NCBI RefSeq assembly: GCF_900128445.1
Contig: NZ_LT671417.1
Span: forward strand, 2,367,201-2,431,200
Source: Thermophilibacter provencensis
GTDB lineage: Bacteria > Actinomycetota > Coriobacteriia > Coriobacteriales > Atopobiaceae
DNA length: 64,000 nucleotides
Direction: 5' to 3'
The stretch's first letter is position 1, and the number at the start of each line of letters is the position of its first letter. Below, in pieces: positions 44,978-55,781 of the stretch. The notes under the pieces are model-generated. The model had not been told where the DNA came from and did not search any database. It saw only the letters and a list, made by a program, of their open reading frames with translations. The position numbers and the translations under genes were made by a program.

Positions 44978-45958
44978 CTACTGCCCCGCCCGGCCGCGGA
45001 CCCTCCGGACGATGGTGGCCACCAGCAGAACAAGCACCACGACCAGCATCGCCAGCCCGCCGATGCGCAGCCAGCGCTCGACCTCGAGCGCGGGCGAGCC
45101 GGTCGACTCCGCCGGGAGGAACGCCGCGACCACCCGCTCGACGGCACCCGGGCTCGCCTGCGCCTCGTCGTTCTCCACTCGCTCGCAGTACACCAGATAG
45201 CGATGCGAGGAGACGGCGTAGGGGTGGCAGGTGAAGAGCGTGACCAGGTCCCTGCCCTCCTGGACGGCAAGCGCGTCGACGTCGTCCGGCTCGATGACGC
45301 GAATCTCGCAGACCCGGTAGGTGAGCTCGTCCCATGCCGTCGTGATGGTAATCGTGTCCCCCACCTCGAGGAGCTCGATGTCGCGGAACATCTGGACGCC
45401 GTGCCAGACGCCCCGGTGCGCCGCGATCACGCAGTTGGAGGACTCCCCGCCGACGGGCATCGACGTCCCGGCGACCACCGCCGCGCCGAGCTCCATGTTG
45501 GCCTCGGTCGCCCCGAGGTAGATGGGCAGCGTGACGCCCATGGCCGGGATGTCGATTGAGCCCACGATACCGTCCGGCAGACCTATCGCGGCCAGCTCGT
45601 CGCCAGAGAAGGCGAAGGGGTCGTTCACCTCGTCGCCCGTGCCCTCGCGGACCCGCTCGCTGTACTCGACGAGCGCCTCGTAGGTGGGGTCGCCCTCCTT
45701 GGGGCGGAAGGCGTCCCCATCATCGTCTTCAGCGGCGGCGGAGGGATCCTCCTCGTCGGACACGGTCGCGGACGCGCGAGACTCCTCGACCACCTGCTCC
45801 ACGCGTCCCTGCTCGATGACCGCCGAGACGCTCGGCGCCAGGAGCAGGCACGCGCCGATGGCGAGAAGGGCGAGCGCAGCCACGAGGGGTGCCACCCCGT
45901 CCCGCTGCCTACGGTGCCCCTCGGGACCGGGCGTTCCCTGGGCGAGGTGCCTAGCCAC
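44978..45958 (-). CDS. Class C (pilin) sortase 2
   Basis: A 326-residue membrane sortase that joins pilin subunits through LPXTG-like signals. Membrane helix near the N-terminus (about 25-45), an acidic linker, then the catalytic domain with the active His in CVIAAHRGVWHG, Cys in LVTLFTCHPYAVSSHRYLVYCER and its Arg. A C-terminal membrane helix LRIGGLAMLVVVLVLLVAT is typical of class C. I prefer GTG 45958, which overlaps the stop of the upstream sortase gene and has GGGAGG seven bases upstream; ATG 45988 would lie inside that gene. The usual TGH reads AAH here, a small departure. Coupled translation with sortase 1 is likely. Confidence 0.83.
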   Translation of the reverse strand: MARHLAQGTPGPEGHRRQRDGVAPLVAALALLAIGACLLLAPSVSAVIEQGRVEQVVEESRASATVSDEEDPSAAAEDDDGDAFRPKEGDPTYEALVEYSERVREGTGDEVNDPFAFSGDELAAIGLPDGIVGSIDIPAMGVTLPIYLGATEANMELGAAVVAGTSMPVGGESSNCVIAAHRGVWHGVQMFRDIELLEVGDTITITTAWDELTYRVCEIRVIEPDDVDALAVQEGRDLVTLFTCHPYAVSSHRYLVYCERVENDEAQASPGAVERVVAAFLPAESTGSPALEVERWLRIGGLAMLVVVLVLLVATIVRRVRGRAGQ

Positions 45959-47021
45959 GGTAGCGCCTCCCGTCACGGCGACGTCCATCGCGCGGGATGA
46001 CGGGCCTCACGCCCACGGCGCGTCTCGGGCCGGCCGATGCGTCGCCTCCGGGACCCTGGCCGGCGAAGTGCCTGCCCGTCGGCCTTGGCGTGGGCTGGCC
46101 AGCGGGAACCGGGGCGCTCCCCGAGCCGCCGCGCCCGCGGGACCGCAGCTTGGACACGAGCACGTATGTGCCAATCACCAGCGCGGCGAGAAGCAGGCCG
46201 AGAAGGACGGAGGGTAGCAGCGCCTTGTCGGGCGGCTCGGTGTAGCCGGAGGGGAAGTCGGCGTCGCCCTTGTCGAGCCACTCCGCGGGCAGCTCGCAGC
46301 GCTCCGCGTGGACGAGCAGGCGGTGGGTGTTAACGCCGTACGGAGTGCAGGTGACGAGCGTGCAGAGATCGCGGCCCTGCTCGATGACGAGGGAGTCGGT
46401 CTCGTCGGGAAGGACCACCTCGACAGAGGTGACGCGGTAGGCGTGGTCCTCGCCGAGGACCGAGATGACGAAGTAGTCCCCCACCTCGAGCTGGTCCAGG
46501 TTGTCGAAGATCTTCATCGAGGGGAGGCCGGTATGGCCGGAGAGGACGCAGTGCGTCGACTCGCCGCCGATGGGGACGGAGGTGCCCTCGAGGTGCCCGA
46601 TGCCATGCTCGAGCACGTCGGTGTCCGTGGTGTGGTAGATGGGAAGCTCGACGTGGATCTTTGGGATGTTGATGGTGGCCATCACCCCATCGCCGGAGAG
46701 GTTCAGGACGTTGTCGTAGTCCTCGTCCGTGGGACGCTCAGCATCGGGGTCGAAGGGATCGGTCACCACCGCACGGCCGTCGAGGAGCTGCTGGTTGTAG
46801 GTAACGGCCTTCTCGCGCTCGGCGGCGAGGGTGGCTTCGTCGGTGCTGTAGACACTCTGAATAGTAGTTTCAACAACCTCTTTCTCCTGTGCCTGGTTCA
46901 AGGCATCGCTCACGAACGGATACGCAATACAGCCCATCCCAACGAGAAGTGCGAGAAGTGCAACGAAGACCCCTCGTCGCGATGGGAGCCCCCCTTTTTT
47001 CTCTCCCCTAAGCGCGGACAT
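45951..47021 (-). CDS. Class C (pilin) sortase 1
   Basis: A 356-residue class C sortase with N-terminal helix ([19 protein letters not shown]), catalytic His in [18 protein letters not shown], Cys in [23 protein letters not shown] and a C-terminal helix ([21 protein letters not shown]) followed by a basic tail of about 60 residues, longer than usual. A DPFDP sequence in the linker may be the lid motif (DPF/W) that covers the active site of pilin sortases. ATG at 47021 follows AGGAGG. It lies downstream of the backbone pilin and should polymerise it. Confidence 0.9.
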
Positions 47022-47103
47022 AAGAGCCTCCTGATGTTCCAGAAAACGTATCAATCGTCAATCGAGGGACACACTTTGTAAGTTGCCACACAAGTGCAAC
47101 AAT

Positions 47104-47177: not shown

Positions 47178-48602
47178 CTAGTTCTCCTTGCGGAAGCGGA
47201 CAATGAAGGCAGCCGCGCCGGCAACAAGCACGACGCCAGCAGCGGTCAGGGCAACAGTACCCATGCCACCGGTGGTCGGGAGCTCAATGCCCTCGTGGTC
47301 GGTGGAGGCGACGTTGGGGATGTAGAAGGTGCCGCCCTCAGCGGTGACCTCAATCTCGATCGGGTTGGCCACGATCTGGTAGCCGGACGGGGCAGCGGTC
47401 TCCATGAGGTAGTAGGTGCCAGGCTCGAGGAGCGTATCGGCGTCCGTGGAAGCCTCACCATTGACGGTCGTAAGGGTGACCTGAGTCGTGCTGTCCTTCT
47501 TGTAGACGGGGTTCTGGCAGGCCTGGTCGTAGTAGAGCGCGAACTCGGCGCCGCTCAGGAGATCCTCGCCCTCGTCGTATTTGCTGTCCTCGTCAGCGTC
47601 ACCGTACTTGACGATGTCGAAGCCGACGAAGTCGACGGTGACGGTGTCGCCGTCAGCGTTGTTGGTCGAGGTGACCGTGTTGGTCACGCCGTCAAGCGTG
47701 GCTTCAGGAGTGATGAGGCCCTTGTACTCGATGGTGTAGGTACCGGCGTTGACCGAAGTGCCGTTGGCGCTCTTCTCCTGGAGCCAATCAGTGTCGAAGT
47801 TGACCGTGAAGGACTGGTCGCCCTCGTTGTCGGAAACGGTGTAGACACCCTCAGCGGGGACGATCTGGCCGTTCTTGTACAGCACGACGTCCTCGGCGCC
47901 GGTGAAGGTGAGGCCGGTGCTCATAGTATCGGTGAGGACGAACTCGCTCTGATTGGCGTTAATCTCGAAGGTGACCTGGAAGGTGACCTCGTCGCCGACC
48001 ATGGCGTAACCGAGCTTGCCGCCATTCTGCTCATACTGAACGGCGCCACCGGTGATCTTCTTGTCGAGCGTCGTAGTGCTCTTCTTGAGGTCGATGTAGG
48101 CGTCATCGAAGGTCCAGTCAGTGGTGTCCTCGACAGCGACCGGGCTCATGGCGACGATCGTGGGCTGGTAGGTCACGGACTCGTCCGCGGGGACAACGTC
48201 AACGAGGTAAAGACCAGCGTCAACGTTGCTGAAGATGACGGAGGTTTGGCCGTCCTGGACCGTAGCAGCGGTACCGAACGGACTCGCATCGCCGCGGTCC
48301 TCCCAGACGTCCTGAGCGGTCTCAGAGCCGGCGGCGTCGAGGTACGCGTCAACCGTGTCCTGCTCGAAGCCGGTCTGGACGACGAGTGTGGTGGTGTTGT
48401 CATCGTTGAGCTGAACGTCAGCGACCTTGTAGAGGGTCACCACGTCACCCGGCTGGAGGTTGCTGACCGTGATGGTCTTGGTCTCGCCGCCGGTCCACGG
48501 CGTAGGCTCGGCCTGGGCCACGCCCGGGGCGATGGCGAGGGCGGCGACGAGCGCCACGAAAGCGACTAGCAGCCCCCTCAGCCTGTTCTTGATGTGAGCC
48601 AT
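47178..48602 (-). CDS. SpaA-type LPXTG backbone pilin
   Basis: A 474-residue surface protein. Signal peptide 1-31 (GLLVAFVALVAALAIAPGVAQA), then beta-rich domains with pilin-type repeats: the isopeptide domain around LDKKITGGAVQYEQN, a Cna-B/SpaA module FDIVKYGDADEDSKYDEGEDLLSGAEFALYYD, and the E-box YYLMETAAPSGYQ. The sorting signal is LPTTG (ELPTTGGMG) followed by a hydrophobic helix and RFRKEN. AAAGGAGA precedes ATG 48602. Sortase C joins such subunits into pili. The gene lies between the tip adhesin and sortase genes. Confidence 0.9.
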   Translation of the reverse strand: MAHIKNRLRGLLVAFVALVAALAIAPGVAQAEPTPWTGGETKTITVSNLQPGDVVTLYKVADVQLNDDNTTTLVVQTGFEQDTVDAYLDAAGSETAQDVWEDRGDASPFGTAATVQDGQTSVIFSNVDAGLYLVDVVPADESVTYQPTIVAMSPVAVEDTTDWTFDDAYIDLKKSTTTLDKKITGGAVQYEQNGGKLGYAMVGDEVTFQVTFEINANQSEFVLTDTMSTGLTFTGAEDVVLYKNGQIVPAEGVYTVSDNEGDQSFTVNFDTDWLQEKSANGTSVNAGTYTIEYKGLITPEATLDGVTNTVTSTNNADGDTVTVDFVGFDIVKYGDADEDSKYDEGEDLLSGAEFALYYDQACQNPVYKKDSTTQVTLTTVNGEASTDADTLLEPGTYYLMETAAPSGYQIVANPIEIEVTAEGGTFYIPNVASTDHEGIELPTTGGMGTVALTAAGVVLVAGAAAFIVRFRKEN

Positions 48603-48739: not shown

Positions 48740-51700
48740 CTAGTTCCTAAGGTTTCCGAACTTCTTGCTCAGGTAGACTCCGGCAAGGACGATCGCAGCG
48801 AAGCCAGCAGACATCATGAGGAGCGTCCCGTTGGAGCCGGAGGACGGAATGTCGGGGAGCTTCACATTGGAAACCTGAATGTAGAAGCAGTGGTCAACCT
48901 CGTCGCTCGTTCCGTCTGGATTGCCATCGACACGAGCAGGATCAAGTTCAACCCACTTACCGTCACCGTTGAGAACCTTCACAACGCCATTTTCAACCTT
49001 GACTTGGAAGCTCACACCGTCCTCAGACTCAGCTTGATATCCGGACGGGAACTTCGTCTCGGTGAGGGTGTAGGTCTTGCCGTCCTCTAACCCGTAGAAG
49101 TAGAGAATGCCCTGATCGTTAGTGGCCTGCTCATCGGCACCAAGCCTGTTATCCTCCGTCGCCTCAGGCGCGCGGTACGCAGGGACCTCATTACCTTCCT
49201 CGTCCTCAAGCGAGAAGTACGCGTTGGGGAGTCGAGTAGCAGTCCCCTTCTCGACCTTTACGATCTGCAGCCCGAGCGGCCTAAGCTCGTTAGTGAACGT
49301 CAGCGTGTACTCGGGCGCTACCGCCCTGGACTGCACCCCACCATCTGACTGCGTAAGCGATGCATCAACGGGCTGGAACGATCCGTTGGAAGGATAGGTA
49401 CCAATCAGCTCGGGATTCGCTGAATCAACATCCCCGTCCTCAATGGTCGCCTGGTAAAGCTGGACCTCGAGGCGCCCGTTGACAATCACCGGCTTGAACT
49501 GAAGGAGATATCGAGTCTCGTCAAAGACGAAGTCGTCCTCCGAGTAATCGCCCTGGTAGTTATCAGACATACCAGTCTCGGTGATGAGGTACTCAAAGAC
49601 TCTTCCAGCCCTGGCATCAGCTGTGGTAAAGCGCATGCCTCGCAGGCCGTCGATAGCGCCCGAGGTGGTCGTCCCGTTTGAGAACACATAGGTGTTCGGG
49701 GAGAGGCCCGCCATCTTCGCCGCCTCATTGGCAGACACATACGTGCCGTCTGCCTCGTTGCCGGTCTGGCGCGCTTCAATGGAGAACTCGAACATGTTCT
49801 CCTCAAGTTCGGCGCCCTCGAGAACCTTCTTGACACCGACGGCGTAGACGATCTCCTTCGAGTCAAAGGTGATTACGGGGTTAGGATACTCGTCAGTCTG
49901 CTGTGTGCCGGCTGACTCATAGGTAAGGGTCGCCTCAGTATTGCTATGGAAGCCATCCTTATCCGTCGAGATGTAATTCTCCTCGGCAGTTCCGGGGACG
50001 TCGGTTATCTTCTCGCCCGTGTCCGGGTAGGTGCCGTGCTCGTTGAAATAGTCGACGGCGGTTTCGCTGGGCTCAATCTGCGTCGTAACGGTGTACGTCC
50101 AGCCGTCCTCGAGCGCGTAGTCCTGGGGGAACGAGAGCGTAAACTTCTTGGCTGAGCCGTCGTAGCTGAGCGTCAGCTCTTGTTGCTTCCCCTCACCGTC
50201 TGTGAAGGTGAACTTCGCGTTCTCGACATTCCCGTTGTCATTGACACGCACGGGACCATTAGTAGTCACTGCAACCGAATCTCCGCTGTGATATCCCTTG
50301 GTGATGGAGACAGTGAACTCAGCATCGTCCGTGAGGTCGGCGTACTCGCTCAGGGTGTCGGTAATTGTCACGCCCGTGCAGTTCACGCTCGTGATCTCGG
50401 CGGCGATGCCCTCAAAACGGGCAATGAGGTCCTCGCGATTGCTGCTCTTGAACATCTCCTTCTCAGTAGAAGATGTCGCACCGTTTACGATCTCCTGAAG
50501 GCGGTTCTCGAACTGGTCGTCGCCGACGCCCACCACGTAGAACTTGTCGGCGTTGAACTGTCCGGCAACCTCCGCGGCTTGGCGCGTCGCTTCGTCTGCA
50601 TTCTGGTCCTGTTCGTTGCCGTCATTATCAAGACAGCGGTTGGGCTCGCCGTCGGAGATGAACACGACAACCTTCTGCGCATCATCCCGCGCGGTACTGA
50701 AGATGGGGAGTGCATCGGTCAGACCGGCCTCGTAGTTCGTACCCGTGGCGAACGAACTCCATGCAGCCTCGGGCAAGGCGAAACTACTGAGGGGCGTAAA
50801 GCCACTCTTATCTATGGTGTCATAAGCGAAGGTCACCAATGCGGCGCGAGCATCGATGCCCGTCTCGCCCAGCTTGTCGTTCAGGGCGTTGATAGCATCC
50901 GTTGCCGCACTATAGCGTCCAAACGAATAGTCATATCCCTGCTCGTCGCCGCTCGTATTGTCGCTTCCACCAGGGTAGGAGCCATTCATATCCCACATCA
51001 TGCTGTAGGAGAGGTCGAGAACGTACACGATGTCGACCTCGGTCGGATCGGCCTCATCTCTGCGGACAGTGCCGTGAACGTCAAGGCTCAGGTCGTAGCT
51101 GCCGTCATCATTCTTGGCAACGTACTTGTGGAAATCGGGCTTTACCGGCTCGGGCGGGGTCACGAGAGACTCGTCGACCTGGATGACGGGCTTGGGGAAC
51201 GGCGCCTCGTCGGGTTCAAGCTCAGTTACATCATCGTCTTCCACGGCAATTGGGGTAAAGTCAACCTTCGCGTTTGCGTTGTCGTTGCTCCAGAAGCCAC
51301 GCTGGTTCGCGTGCGTTCCCGTGTATGCTTCGCCTGTGCCGTCATAGGCGTTCGTATCGTTCGCCTCAAAAGCGCTGATCGCAGCTTCGCTCGGCGCAAT
51401 CGTAGACGAGACCGTATAGCGATAGTTCTGGGCGAGAGGATAATCTTTGTCAAACTCAACTCGGATGGTTTCCTTGCCGCTAGCATCAACGTCGACAAAA
51501 ACGGTCATCTCGACGGTCTGGCTACCGTCGCTAATCGTCACATTCGTGCCCTGTTGAGCGTTGGGGCTAACGGTTATCTCCTCGGTGGTAACCGTCTCGT
51601 AGGCACTCTGAGCGTTATCGCGCTTTTCCAGCTCAAGCGTAAAGCTGTAGCTTCCATCATCGTTCGCGACGAGATCGGCGTTGTCGCTCAGGGGGTCCGT

Positions 51701-53530
51701 CATCTTAACGCCCTGCGTATCGAAGAAGGTAATCTGCTTTTGGATGTCTGCGAACGCCTCGAGGAGCTGGCCAGCATCGCTGGCCACATATTTTCCTTTG
51801 TTCGACTCGTGAACGTTAACCGCGTCGAGCATGTTATTGAAGACGTTCGATTCAAAATTATCGGTCACGCCAACCATGTAGAAATAATCGGCATTAAGCT
51901 TGTCGCACTCATTGACAGCCATTTTCAATGCATCAGGGTCATATTCTGTTGTCTCACCACCTGAAAGGCCATTGTTTTGGTAGTACAGCGTCGGGTTACC
52001 ATCAGTGATGAAGATCACGACCCTGTAAGCGCCGTCACGCGAGTTTTCTAATAGCTTGGCTCCCTCCATTATTCCAGCCTGATAGTTAGTTCCGCCGTCG
52101 AGGCGCGAGTCGTCAAATGAATTGGGCACCGAGTTGATGAGCGTAGAGCTATTCCCCGTCCACTCCTGCAGAAGCTCGGAATCGTTATACGCACTGTCAG
52201 TGTAGGAACCGCTCTGGTAACGGCCTGTTTTTCCACCTTTGAAGCCCACAAGAGCGTATTGCGCGTCAATAGAATCGTTTGACGACAAGCCGGGGTTATT
52301 GTTGTCCCCTACAAGAATCTGTCTAATTGCATTCTTTGCGGCAGCGATTCTTGTCTGCCCGCCCCAGATTTCCGCCATACTGTTGGACTCATCAAGAATG
52401 AAAAGGACGTCGACCTTCTGCTTCTGATCGACCTGGCCACGGTCGCCCGAGACAGACAGGTTGAGCTCATAGTTGCCGGACCCGTCCTCAAGCTTTACTG
52501 CCGACTTGCCGGTCGTGACCGTCGCGTTGCTTTCAGGAATCTCAGGCTCCGATTGTTCCTCGGTATATACGAGGTAAATATGTGCATATTGGGTACTTGA
52601 GTACCAATGTCCGGTGTCATAGGTGAGAGTGTCGACATGGCCACTAGCACCCGAGTTGCTGTTATAAAACGCAAGTGAATATTCGGGGTATCGAGAGCCA
52701 CTCGACGACGATACCATGCGAACAACGGACTTTGCATCGTCGAAATTACCCTGTTGCCCCTCGCTGTAGAGAGACTCGCCTGAGAACGTGTATCCAGGAA
52801 TAGTAACGCCCTCGGCATAATCCGCAAATGTATATGTTTGTTTATTCGAAATCGATACGTCTCTGTGAAGATCGTTGTCCCCTATTTCTTTGCCGTTCTC
52901 ATCGACATAGTGAACGGTGATCTCGAAATAACGGGAATAGCCATAGTTGCCGCTCCACGTAATCGTGAACTTGGAGAAGCTCTCCACCGCGAACTCGGCG
53001 TCGACGGTGGCGTCGTCTTGGACGGCAACGGTGCCCTCGGTGGCGTCAGCGTCGTCGGCCACGGCCTCGACCTCAGAGACGGTGCCGTCCTCGGCCTCGG
53101 CGAGGTGGTGGACGGCGAGGTCCTCGGCGCCCTCGGGCACGGCGCCCTCGGGGAGCTCGAAGCGGACGCTCACGGCCTCGGTCGGCTCGACCTCGTTGCC
53201 GTCGGCATCAGTGAAGTAGACGTCGAAGGCGGCGAAGCCGTCGTAGGAGACCCCGGCCTCGTCGAGCTCGTCCGTGACTGCCTGAACGTCCTCGTCGGAC
53301 GTGACGGGGTCGACGTGGAGCGCCGCGCCATCGGGAAGCGCGCCCTGGGGAGCGCTGACGCTCACCTTGACGCCGTCCTCGGTGGTCGCCTCATAGCTCG
53401 TCGCCGAAGTCATCGCGCTTGCCGCCATCGCGACCGTCGAGGTCACGCCCATGACCGCTAGCGTCGCGACGACCATCACGACCACCAGCGAGGCGACCCT
53501 CCTCAGCGCCGTTCTTCTCGGTACCTTCAT
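48740..53530 (-). CDS. Pilus tip adhesin with two von Willebrand A domains
   Basis: A 1596-residue exported protein. Signal peptide 1-38. Residues about 200-325 form a beta-rich module. A first vWA domain (about 370-600) has MIDAS sequence FILDESNSMA (380-384) and a second (about 830-1020) has YVLDLSYSMM (839-843). Each is followed by a similar beta module (TDPLSDNADL near 611 and TDTLSEYADL), so a 450-residue unit is duplicated. C-terminal SpaA-like stalk ends near 1560 with LTETKFPSGYQ. The sorting signal is unusual: IPSSGSNG and then a hydrophobic helix. ATG at 53530 has GGAGG seven bases upstream. DNA at 51.4-52.9 kb is visibly A+T-richer than the flanks, suggesting transfer. The protein should cap the pilus and bind host or bacterial ligands. 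Confidence 0.88.
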   Translation of the reverse strand: MKVPRRTALRRVASLVVVMVVATLAVMGVTSTVAMAASAMTSATSYEATTEDGVKVSVSAPQGALPDGAALHVDPVTSDEDVQAVTDELDEAGVSYDGFAAFDVYFTDADGNEVEPTEAVSVRFELPEGAVPEGAEDLAVHHLAEAEDGTVSEVEAVADDADATEGTVAVQDDATVDAEFAVESFSKFTITWSGNYGYSRYFEITVHYVDENGKEIGDNDLHRDVSISNKQTYTFADYAEGVTIPGYTFSGESLYSEGQQGNFDDAKSVVRMVSSSSGSRYPEYSLAFYNSNSGASGHVDTLTYDTGHWYSSTQYAHIYLVYTEEQSEPEIPESNATVTTGKSAVKLEDGSGNYELNLSVSGDRGQVDQKQKVDVLFILDESNSMAEIWGGQTRIAAAKNAIRQILVGDNNNPGLSSNDSIDAQYALVGFKGGKTGRYQSGSYTDSAYNDSELLQEWTGNSSTLINSVPNSFDDSRLDGGTNYQAGIMEGAKLLENSRDGAYRVVIFITDGNPTLYYQNNGLSGGETTEYDPDALKMAVNECDKLNADYFYMVGVTDNFESNVFNNMLDAVNVHESNKGKYVASDAGQLLEAFADIQKQITFFDTQGVKMTDPLSDNADLVANDDGSYSFTLELEKRDNAQSAYETVTTEEITVSPNAQQGTNVTISDGSQTVEMTVFVDVDASGKETIRVEFDKDYPLAQNYRYTVSSTIAPSEAAISAFEANDTNAYDGTGEAYTGTHANQRGFWSNDNANAKVDFTPIAVEDDDVTELEPDEAPFPKPVIQVDESLVTPPEPVKPDFHKYVAKNDDGSYDLSLDVHGTVRRDEADPTEVDIVYVLDLSYSMMWDMNGSYPGGSDNTSGDEQGYDYSFGRYSAATDAINALNDKLGETGIDARAALVTFAYDTIDKSGFTPLSSFALPEAAWSSFATGTNYEAGLTDALPIFSTARDDAQKVVVFISDGEPNRCLDNDGNEQDQNADEATRQAAEVAGQFNADKFYVVGVGDDQFENRLQEIVNGATSSTEKEMFKSSNREDLIARFEGIAAEITSVNCTGVTITDTLSEYADLTDDAEFTVSITKGYHSGDSVAVTTNGPVRVNDNGNVENAKFTFTDGEGKQQELTLSYDGSAKKFTLSFPQDYALEDGWTYTVTTQIEPSETAVDYFNEHGTYPDTGEKITDVPGTAEENYISTDKDGFHSNTEATLTYESAGTQQTDEYPNPVITFDSKEIVYAVGVKKVLEGAELEENMFEFSIEARQTGNEADGTYVSANEAAKMAGLSPNTYVFSNGTTTSGAIDGLRGMRFTTADARAGRVFEYLITETGMSDNYQGDYSEDDFVFDETRYLLQFKPVIVNGRLEVQLYQATIEDGDVDSANPELIGTYPSNGSFQPVDASLTQSDGGVQSRAVAPEYTLTFTNELRPLGLQIVKVEKGTATRLPNAYFSLEDEEGNEVPAYRAPEATEDNRLGADEQATNDQGILYFYGLEDGKTYTLTETKFPSGYQAESEDGVSFQVKVENGVVKVLNGDGKWVELDPARVDGNPDGTSDEVDHCFYIQVSNVKLPDIPSSGSNGTLLMMSAGFAAIVLAGVYLSKKFGNLRN

Positions 53531-53954
53531 CCGCCTACCTCCATGCCTTTGGAGCGCCAATGCGTCCATGCTTCGTTGCGTGTCATAAATCGAGACGCAT
53601 TTTTGAATCACATGTAGGCAAGTTTAGGGTTGGTTGAGGGATAATCTCTTTTCCTGTTTTATGATAGGGGGTACTGAAATCGCATCATATTCGCAATGTT
53701 ATGGGGAGGGGGTATGTCTATTTCGAAACAGCCCTCTCATGATGCGGATGTCGACTGGCTCTTCTCGCTGAGAACCAGCGCGCGGTTGAGTGCGATGAGC
53801 TGGAATAACGCATCCATGCACGTTATTCGCCCCACGTCGCCTCCACCATTTTGCTGGGAGGGGGTATTTCTTTCACTCACGAGATTTTTACACGCCTGCG
53901 ACTGACACTACGGTCCGAGCATTATCAAATGTTATAACTACGACCCTAGGGACG
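53531..53954. other. Pilus operon upstream region
   Basis: This 424-base region is A+T-rich near the adhesin gene and holds G-rich repeats on the plus strand (53665-53874). A plus-strand frame at 53714-53905 has a binding-site-like GGAGG but no family resemblance; I do not call it a gene. The promoter of the pilus operon must lie here; I cannot pick -10 and -35 with confidence. Confidence 0.5.
53665..53874. promoter_or_regulatory. C-rich motifs upstream of the pilus operon
   Basis: On the strand of the pilus genes, ATACCCCCTCCC occurs at 53855-53866 and near 53703-53715, and a shorter GTACCCCCTAT at 53665-53675. A fourth copy, AGACCCCCTCCCC, lies at about 55182-55195 upstream of the second winged-helix gene. 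Flanking bases AAAATGGTG and AAATGATG also match for two of them. They could be binding sites for the adjacent winged-helix proteins. Confidence 0.4.
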
Positions 53955-54368
53955 TCAGTCCTCGGGCCACACCTCGTCCACCACCGTGTAGACGTTGGCA
54001 AGCTGCGCTCCGTTCTCGGCGTGGACGGGCTCGGAGAGCACGATGCCCTCGCGGCGCATGCGGGAGAGCAGCCGGTCGACGGTCTTCTCGTTTCTCCCTA
54101 GGGCGAGCGCGATCTTTGCCTTGGAGCAGGGCCTGCCCGCGTGCCGCTCGATGAACTCAATGATCTGCGCCTCCGTGGGCGTAAGGCGGACGGGCCCGTT
54201 TGCCGTCATGCGGATGCGCTTGGAGCGCCGCTCGCGCCGAGGCCGATTGTTCGTGCGCCCTCCGTCGCGGGCCTCCTGCACCGCATCGCGCTCAGCGCCC
54301 TCCGCGGGCACGCCGCCCCGAGAGGCAGCAACCCCCCACTGAACTTTGCTTGCGCCGATGCGCGCCAT
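53955..54368 (-). CDS. Winged helix-turn-helix protein A (in frame)
   Basis: A 137-residue putative regulator. N-terminus MARIGASKVQWGVAAS, then a low-complexity basic linker (about 17-50) and a C-terminal winged helix: RLTPTEAQIIEFIERHAGRP, CSKAKIALALGRNEKTVDRLLSRMRREGIV, PVHAENGAQLANVYTVV. ATG at 54368 has GGAGGGA upstream, and the same N-terminus occurs in the neighbouring paralogue, which supports this start. A run of six G follows the Trp codon and keeps the frame open. The gene lies next to the pilus tip gene on the same strand and may control it. I know no named family beyond winged helix. Confidence 0.7.
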   Translation of the reverse strand: MARIGASKVQWGVAASRGGVPAEGAERDAVQEARDGGRTNNRPRRERRSKRIRMTANGPVRLTPTEAQIIEFIERHAGRPCSKAKIALALGRNEKTVDRLLSRMRREGIVLSEPVHAENGAQLANVYTVVDEVWPED

Positions 54369-54608: not shown

Positions 54609-55018
54609 TCAGTCGAGCGGCTGCGACTCCTCAACCACCTCGTAGACGTTGGCGAGCTGCGCGCCGTTTTCCGCGTGGACGGGCGTGGATATGACGATGC
54701 CCTCCCGGCGCATGCGGGAGAGCAGGCGGTCGACGGTCTTCTCGTTGCAGCCCAGCACGGCCGCGATCTGCGCCTTGGAGCAGGGCTTTCCCTCGTGCCG
54801 CTCGATGAACTCGATGATCTTTGCCTCCGTGGGGGTAAGGCGGACGGGCCCCGCGGCGGTCATGCGGATGCGCTTGGCGCCGCGCATGCCCCGCGGCCTC
54901 CGCGCGTCGGCGGCCCCGCGCGTCTGGGTGGCCTCCTCGGAGCCGGGCGTCATCTCCAGGGGTTTATCCGGTGAGGACCCCCCCCCCACTGCACTTTTTT
55001 CGCCCCTATGCGCGCCAT
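54609..55018 (-). CDS. Winged helix-turn-helix protein B, out of frame at a poly-G tract
   Basis: A paralogue of the neighbouring gene. ATG at 55018, preceded by AAGGG, starts MARIGAKKVQWGGG and then meets ten G residues (54978-54987 on the plus strand as C). With ten G the frame ends after about 20 residues at a TGA near 54951. The remaining coding sequence for the winged helix (RLTPTEAKIIEFIERHEGKP, NEKTVDRLLSRMRREGIVIS, PVHAENGAQLANVYEVV) continues in another frame to 54609. Eight or eleven G would join both parts into a protein of 135 or 136 residues, matching the paralogue's 137. A poorly supported internal ATG at 54953 could make the DNA-binding part alone. The simplest reading is a phase-variable regulator in its OFF state. 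Confidence 0.7.
54978..54987 (-). repeat. Poly-G(10) tract, putative phase-variation switch
   Basis: Ten identical bases (G on the coding strand) lie at codons 11-14 of winged-helix gene B. The corresponding place in gene A has six G. Homopolymer tracts of this length are prone to slippage during replication. Confidence 0.75.
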
Positions 55019-55172
55019 CCTGCGCCCTTCCCGTCACGTGCCCGACCGACCAGAGCCTAGCCCTCTGGTCGCACGAGCCACATTGTTCCAATCGTTGCGG
55101 AAAGTGTACGGGGCGAGCGGGGGCGCTTCCGCGCAAGGCGTCGCGCAATCCGCGGCGCGCCATCAAACCGTC

Positions 55173-55195
55173 ATCATTTCGTGGGGAGGGGGTCT
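55173..55195. promoter_or_regulatory. C-rich motif upstream of winged-helix gene B
   Basis: AGACCCCCTCCCCACGAAAT on the minus strand, about 155 bases before gene B, matches the motifs upstream of the pilus operon. The rest of 55019-55257 has no credible gene. Confidence 0.35.
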
Positions 55196-55257: not shown

Positions 55258-55506
55258 TCAGAGTGCGGCGGCGATGGCCCTCCTGATGAAGTCGGACCGG
55301 TTCTGCGCCCTCTCGTCAATCGCTTCGACCATCGACTGGGGAATCTTGACGGTCACCGTCACGAGCGGCTCGTCGGCGACGGCCGCCGGTCCCTGGTGGA
55401 TGCGCTGGAGGCGGCCCGCCCATGACTCAGTCTCGAACTCCTTGCAGATGCGGTCGATGTCCTCGTCCGTGAGAACTCCACCGTTTGCCAGCTTGTACTC
55501 TGCCAT
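55258..55506 (-). CDS. Putative antitoxin, ribbon-helix-helix
   Basis: An 82-residue acidic protein. Its C-terminal half VTVTVKIPQSMVEAIDERAQNRSDFIRRAIAAAL is a classical CopG/MetJ-like ribbon-helix-helix DNA-binding domain; the N-terminal half is likely the toxin-binding region. AAGGAGA precedes ATG 55506, which lies one base after the stop codon of the upstream gene, so translation is coupled. The gene order toxin then antitoxin is seen in several type II families such as BrnT/BrnA. A palindrome before the toxin gene could be its operator. Confidence 0.7.
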   Translation of the reverse strand: MAEYKLANGGVLTDEDIDRICKEFETESWAGRLQRIHQGPAAVADEPLVTVTVKIPQSMVEAIDERAQNRSDFIRRAIAAAL

Positions 55507-55507
55507 C

Positions 55508-55765
55508 TCAGTTTCTCCTTATTAGATAGTCAATCTCATTCAGGACCTTCTTGGTTGGAGGGGTCATCGCGTGATACACGAGCCACTCACCACCTGGAAG
55601 AAGCGACCCTACCATCTCAACCAGACGCCCCGCAGGGTCAACCCCCACGCGAACCTCCAATTCTCCGGGAACGAGGACGGCACCGATCAGATAGTTCTCC
55701 CAAGCCAATCTGATTTCAGTGGCGGAGAGGCCATGCTTGAGAGCGTTCGAGTGCACCTTTACCAT
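55508..55765 (-). CDS. Putative toxin of a type II toxin-antitoxin pair
   Basis: An 85-residue protein: MVKVHSNALKHGLSATEIRLAW near the start, a central beta hairpin VRVGVDPAGRLVEMVGSLLPGGEWLVYHAMT, and a C-terminal helix KKVLNEIDYLIRR. The KHGLS and terminal K/R-rich helix recall BrnT-like RNase toxins, but similarity is weak and I call it by context: small size, coupling to a ribbon-helix-helix antitoxin and an upstream operator. GGGAGGAG precedes ATG 55765. Confidence 0.6.
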   Translation of the reverse strand: MVKVHSNALKHGLSATEIRLAWENYLIGAVLVPGELEVRVGVDPAGRLVEMVGSLLPGGEWLVYHAMTPPTKKVLNEIDYLIRRN

Positions 55766-55781
55766 CTGTCTCCTCCCTATT

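Follow-up and report, generated by a model that had tools for sequence, protein, structure and literature searches.

Two related regulator genes, B and A, lie in tandem on the minus strand of the window (the whole 64-kb stretch of DNA analyzed), in the order B, then A, then a sortase pilus operon. The principal features of the locus are the following:

54609..55018, minus strand: gene B, a predicted winged-helix regulator, out of frame in the assembly, with a 22-aa product as assembled
54978..54987, minus strand: G10 tract of gene B (C10 on the plus strand), codons 11-14; a tract of 8 or 11 G restores the frame
55025..55032, minus strand: Shine-Dalgarno-like GGGAAGGG, 5' of the gene B ATG, recognized by its sequence
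54950..54953, minus strand: ATGA overlap of the OFF-frame stop TGA with an ATG in the winged-helix frame, a possible restart site recognized by its sequence
54609..54878, minus strand: winged-helix core of gene B (AKRIRM...), under purifying selection
53955..54368, minus strand: gene A, intact tandem paralogue of 137 aa, MARIGASKVQWG, with a short G6 in place of the long tract
48740..53530, minus strand: first pilus gene, with VWA, SpaA, and MucBP domains, a likely tip adhesin
47178..48602, minus strand: backbone pilin with SpaA and GramPos_pilinBB domains and an LPXTG anchor
45951..47054, minus strand: sortase

The pilus locus that an earlier sequence-only reading had placed beside gene B is real, being composed of a VWA/SpaA adhesin, an LPXTG backbone pilin, and a sortase. 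Just upstream of B, a CopG-type protein gene (55258-55506) and a small neighboring gene (55508-55774), found in the same order in G029, a species of the same genus, look like a toxin-antitoxin pair.

Gene B spans 410 nt (55018-54609), two more than a multiple of three, and its ten-G tract is present where that reading had located it, a pure homopolymer in the 5' coding part whose length sets the reading frame. As assembled, the gene encodes MARIGAKKVQWGGGPHRINPWR, 22 aa, and then stops, close to the roughly 20 codons first estimated, and the predicted read-through at 8 or 11 G is borne out, yielding a putative winged-helix protein of 135 or 136 aa, respectively. The frame is thus ON at 8 and 11 G and OFF at 9, 10, and 12, and the 122 codons downstream of the tract contain no second frameshift or stop. 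A TTG at 55319 in the window, considered as a conserved in-frame upstream start for the winged-helix frame, was rejected, the frame being closed upstream in G029.

The G10 of gene B is the sole G/C run of at least 8 in the window, and the whole 2.63-Mb genome holds ~12 runs of at least 9 G, three of them in one stretch resembling assembly junk. In this genome, G16 and G19 runs in low-complexity junk and a transposon-end-like sequence beside an N gap (C3:1040866-1040953 and C3:1933227-1933271) are probably assembly artefacts. By composition a run of at least 8 G is unsurprising in this GC-rich window, with three 8-mers of G seen versus 4.6 expected from window shuffles, so the argument must rest on position, frame, and relatives rather than on run length. 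The position of the gene B tract, its effect on the frame, and its recurrence in relatives exceed chance.

Gene A carries six G at the matching place, as had been read from the letters, and its frame is open. The description of A and B as nearly identical fits the winged-helix core, with ~75% identity over residues 31-136, and fails for the linker; differences in the leader are mainly at synonymous third positions. In an AlphaFold2 model of gene A, residues ~53-130 form a confidently predicted winged-helix core with the order helix-helix-helix-strand-strand, while residues 10-48 are disordered. The tract falls in this disordered leader, so extra glycines should be tolerated. Searches against Pfam gave MarR_2, HTH_29, and HTH_Crp_2 as best matches, all below the gathering score, with no curated family above the cut-off, and the nearest PDB matches, including MepR, ZitR, and TFE, are weak, with E values of 2e-3 to 1e-2 and no hit under 1e-3. 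The regulator family is widespread in the genus, occurring in 26 of 31 genomes; TGA recoding, considered for homologues L019 and L021, was rejected, as the stops appear upstream of the real starts. Within the core, gene B of the window has an R-to-C change in the motif LGRNEKT that SW781 and G029 lack. This arginine is nearly invariant in 27 homologues, one of which (L027) also has C, and its replacement in the DNA-binding core is a possible sign of decay.

A search of 140 genomes of the family with the leader query ATGGCNCGNATHGGNGC...CARTGGGG found the leader in three species only, all of one genus: the window species, Olsenella sp. SW781 (G014), and G029; viral contigs searched for the gene B leader held no copy. 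SW781 possesses both A and B, and its gene B has G10 followed by one extra T, which places it in frame at 411 nt, while the G029 gene, with G9, is out of frame at 412 nt. Two of the three species are therefore OFF by different tract lengths (G10 and G9) and one is ON (G10+T), and none of the orthologues has a stop or indel behind the tract. The alignment across related genomes proposed as a check on the tract thus reveals a length that varies between species (9, 10, 10+T) with flanks intact, which at the level of species contradicts a tract fixed at ten. G029 has a single copy, flanked on the 5' side as B is and on the 3' side as A is, and located directly before a surface-protein operon; this arrangement resembles either the state preceding the tandem duplication or one following its collapse.

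Substitutions in the 89-codon core indicate purifying selection in every pair, the two frameshifted copies included, with dN/dS of 0.13 for window-SW781, 0.25 for window-G029 (both OFF), and 0.20 for SW781-G029, and with a synonymous excess at Fisher P values of 0.012, 8e-5, and 9e-6, respectively. The core behind the tract is thus selected despite its out-of-frame state. The linker just behind the tract is unconstrained (dN/dS ~0.75-1.2 among B copies), and 5' of the tract the ATG and its GGAAGG ribosome site are kept at the same place in the OFF copies of the window and G029. Given that the core is selected in every pair and that the start 5' of the tract is retained, the OFF alleles appear to be recent and reversible. 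Such core selection is not expected of a gene that a frameshift inactivated long ago.

Tracts of this kind recur in the genus. Around regulators chosen by homology, runs of at least 9 G number 13 in 0.70 Mb versus 3.1 expected from the background of six whole genomes (~4-fold, Poisson P 2e-5), a count from which region L113 was excluded because it had been chosen by its G runs. Regulators with a 5' G9 tract include one in frame (G006 L111), one out of frame (G006 L114), and one with an ambiguous start (G008 L110). Giant surface proteins (956 to 3084 aa), most of which have a cell-wall sorting signal, carry G9-G10 at their first codons and are ON at L105:4316 and L108 and OFF at L104, L105:16671, and L115; a further surface protein with the tract deeper in the gene (L092) is out of frame, and L130 is ambiguous. 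ON and OFF loci coexist within one genome (G011, G006). The distribution of tracts across the genus is that of a collection of independent switches, though it is not universal. The enrichment is limited to the surroundings of these regulators; as a blanket claim, that G runs mark surface genes was rejected, since in the further genomes sampled most runs are scattered and unlinked to surface genes.

With L145 and L170 added to the loci above, large surface proteins of other species in the genus carry G9-G14 tracts within their first codons, in mixed frame, at L104:19630, L105:4316/16671, L108:6942, L115:15786, L145:2922/5556, and L170:2602. In G006, the tracts at L113:3311, 6287, and 9930 (G9, G11, and G9) each separate a TTGACA/TTGACG box from a -10-like hexamer at a distance of 16-17 bp, one of them preceding a 1053-aa surface-type protein, and look like phase-variable promoter spacers. 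In four species, the promoter region of an orthologous ABC transporter contains a G tract (lengths 9, 11, 9, and 10) and, after it, TTCTCC, at L039 (C3:981742 in the window's own genome), L150, L161, and L166. Also in the window's own genome, a C10 at C3:895586-895595 (L037) sits in the 16-bp spacer between TTGCCC and CATAAT that precedes the gene of a small membrane protein, and is a possible promoter length switch.

Candidate operators flank the regulators on the coding strand:

55184..55193, minus strand: ACCCCCTCCC element 5' of gene B, a candidate operator
53856..53865, minus strand: ACCCCCTCCC element between gene A and the pilus operon
53704..53713, minus strand: ACCCCCTCCC element, first of a 41-bp pair upstream of the pilus operon
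53665..53672, minus strand: ACCCCCTA element, second of the 41-bp pair, with the same spacing in relatives

The window contains four copies of ACCCCCTCCC versus 0.17 expected, three of them within 1.5 kb of the locus, in front of B and in the interval from A to the pilus operon; the whole genome has only 16. Upstream of the pilus operon, the paired elements are separated by exactly 41 bp (53713 and 53672), ~four helical turns, and the 41-bp pair recurs in five species: the window species, SW781, G029, An188, and O. profusa An794. Judged by sequence, the spaced pair is a candidate operator that A or B may bind. The element is also found upstream of or near exopolysaccharide-type genes (C3:396241, 398798, 1769594, and 1769654; L075, L076, L081, and L082), encoding chain-length, tyrosine kinase, and sugar transferase functions, which may form a shared surface regulon.

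Gene B is probably a phase-variable regulator of the pilus operon, switched by slipped-strand mispairing; from the data above we infer slippage within a culture, DNA binding, and an effect on pili. The phase switch first proposed from the letters gains support from three independent lines: the differing frame states in three species, the purifying selection on the core, and the like tracts in other regulators and surface proteins. Mispairing at the G tract, in the unstructured N-terminal leader, would add or remove G during replication, with 8 or 11 G giving the full winged-helix protein and 9 or 10 G a translation stop within ~22 codons. Together with its always-in-frame sister A, the B protein would probably bind the ACCCCCTCCC elements located 5' of both gene B and the pilus operon, and a switch in B would alter expression of the pilus and, perhaps, of B itself. 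The effect of B may be smaller if gene A can fill the same role. The weakest single fact is the length of exactly ten G, which may be misread in an assembly with N gaps and poly-G junk.

It is unlikely that gene B is instead a young pseudogene of this strain, gene A having taken over and the first frameshift having happened to hit the tract. An intact paralogue does lie next to B, and the R-to-C change in LGRNEKT is confined, among the three B copies, to that of the window. Against decay stand the 122 codons free of an additional frameshift or stop and the comparable 5' tracts at several other loci; moreover, G029, which has no A copy at the locus, is also OFF, by a different tract length and with its core selected.

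An error in the assembled tract length, which would leave gene B in frame in nearly all cells, is very unlikely. Illumina reads misbehave in G tracts, and in Bifidobacterium breve the reference G11 proved to be a minority allele in the culture (PMC9187656). The assembly at hand contains N gaps, the G16/G19 junk stretch, and transposon-end-like sequence; however, a separately assembled second species is also out of frame, and the tract itself stands even if its length is wrong. We likewise assign very little probability to slippage during transcription or translation rather than replication, by which a fixed share of protein would always be made from the out-of-frame gene. Homopolymers can cause RNA polymerase slippage, and such a share would fit a core that is selected with two of three species out of frame, but the frame class differs between species and between like loci in one genome, which slippage on RNA would not require. 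Least probable is that translation restarts behind the tract, so that every state yields a shortened regulator and the tract does no more than trim the leader: the overlap of the OFF-frame TGA with the winged-helix-frame ATG (ATGA at 54953-54950) is classic restart geometry, and the OFF state of the window gene might still give a trimmed protein in this way, but the ATG is absent from G029, likewise out of frame, and in the window GGAG directly abuts it, too close for a good ribosome site.

With replication slippage at gene B as the preferred reading, a wider one can be put forward: that A and B are two copies of one regulator, the first locked and the second switchable, and that the genus runs a whole poly-G contingency system at three levels, namely in winged-helix regulators of pili, at the start of genes for giant cell-wall-anchored surface proteins (their first codons), and in the spacers of promoters. 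We judge the chances of this joint reading, taken as a whole, to be evenly balanced. With the tract in a regulator, one slip could switch the whole pilus operon, and graded or back-up control would be possible with an unswitched twin next to it. The genus offers many parallel loci for comparison.

Poly-G phase variation is well known in mucosal pathogens, and the Coriobacteriia are common gut and oral commensals; the literature searched contained no report of poly-G phase variation for the Coriobacteriia. Among actinobacteria, Gardnerella resembles the window's genus in having many G/C tracts near genes for cell-wall-anchored surface proteins and some regulators; its tracts lie mostly upstream of genes, and the parts of that report consulted describe no pilus regulator of the gene B kind (PMC11287997). 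The poly-C tract of bvgS in Bordetella pertussis is similar to that of gene B in being a homopolymer in a regulator gene that alters the frame and switches a surface gene set, but bvgS encodes a sensor kinase with a global regulon and alternates between C6 and C7, whereas B would be a winged-helix protein of 136 aa next to a single pilus operon (PMC1891110).

The closest system is that of the pilus clusters bbr_0113 and bbr_1889 of B. breve UCC2003, where replication slippage at a G11/G12 tract was established experimentally as an ON/OFF switch (Penno et al. 2022, PMC9187656) and where passage through the mouse gut enriches the tract length that appears to allow pili (PMC9187656). Both cases involve an intragenic G tract that decides the frame, sortase pili, and an actinobacterial host (PMC9187656). 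The B. breve tract belongs to the cluster's first pilin gene (PMC9187656), whereas here the tract is part of a predicted DNA-binding regulator before the cluster, adjoined by an unswitched twin. The first pilin gene of the window has no such tract, there being no second run of at least 8 in the window, although pilin-type genes elsewhere in the genus do carry them, as in B. breve. Gene B would thus work like the Bifidobacterium switch without being a member of it by definition, since its tract is not in a pilin, and on our best reading it is a new variant of that poly-G pilus switch, with the tract placed in the regulator.
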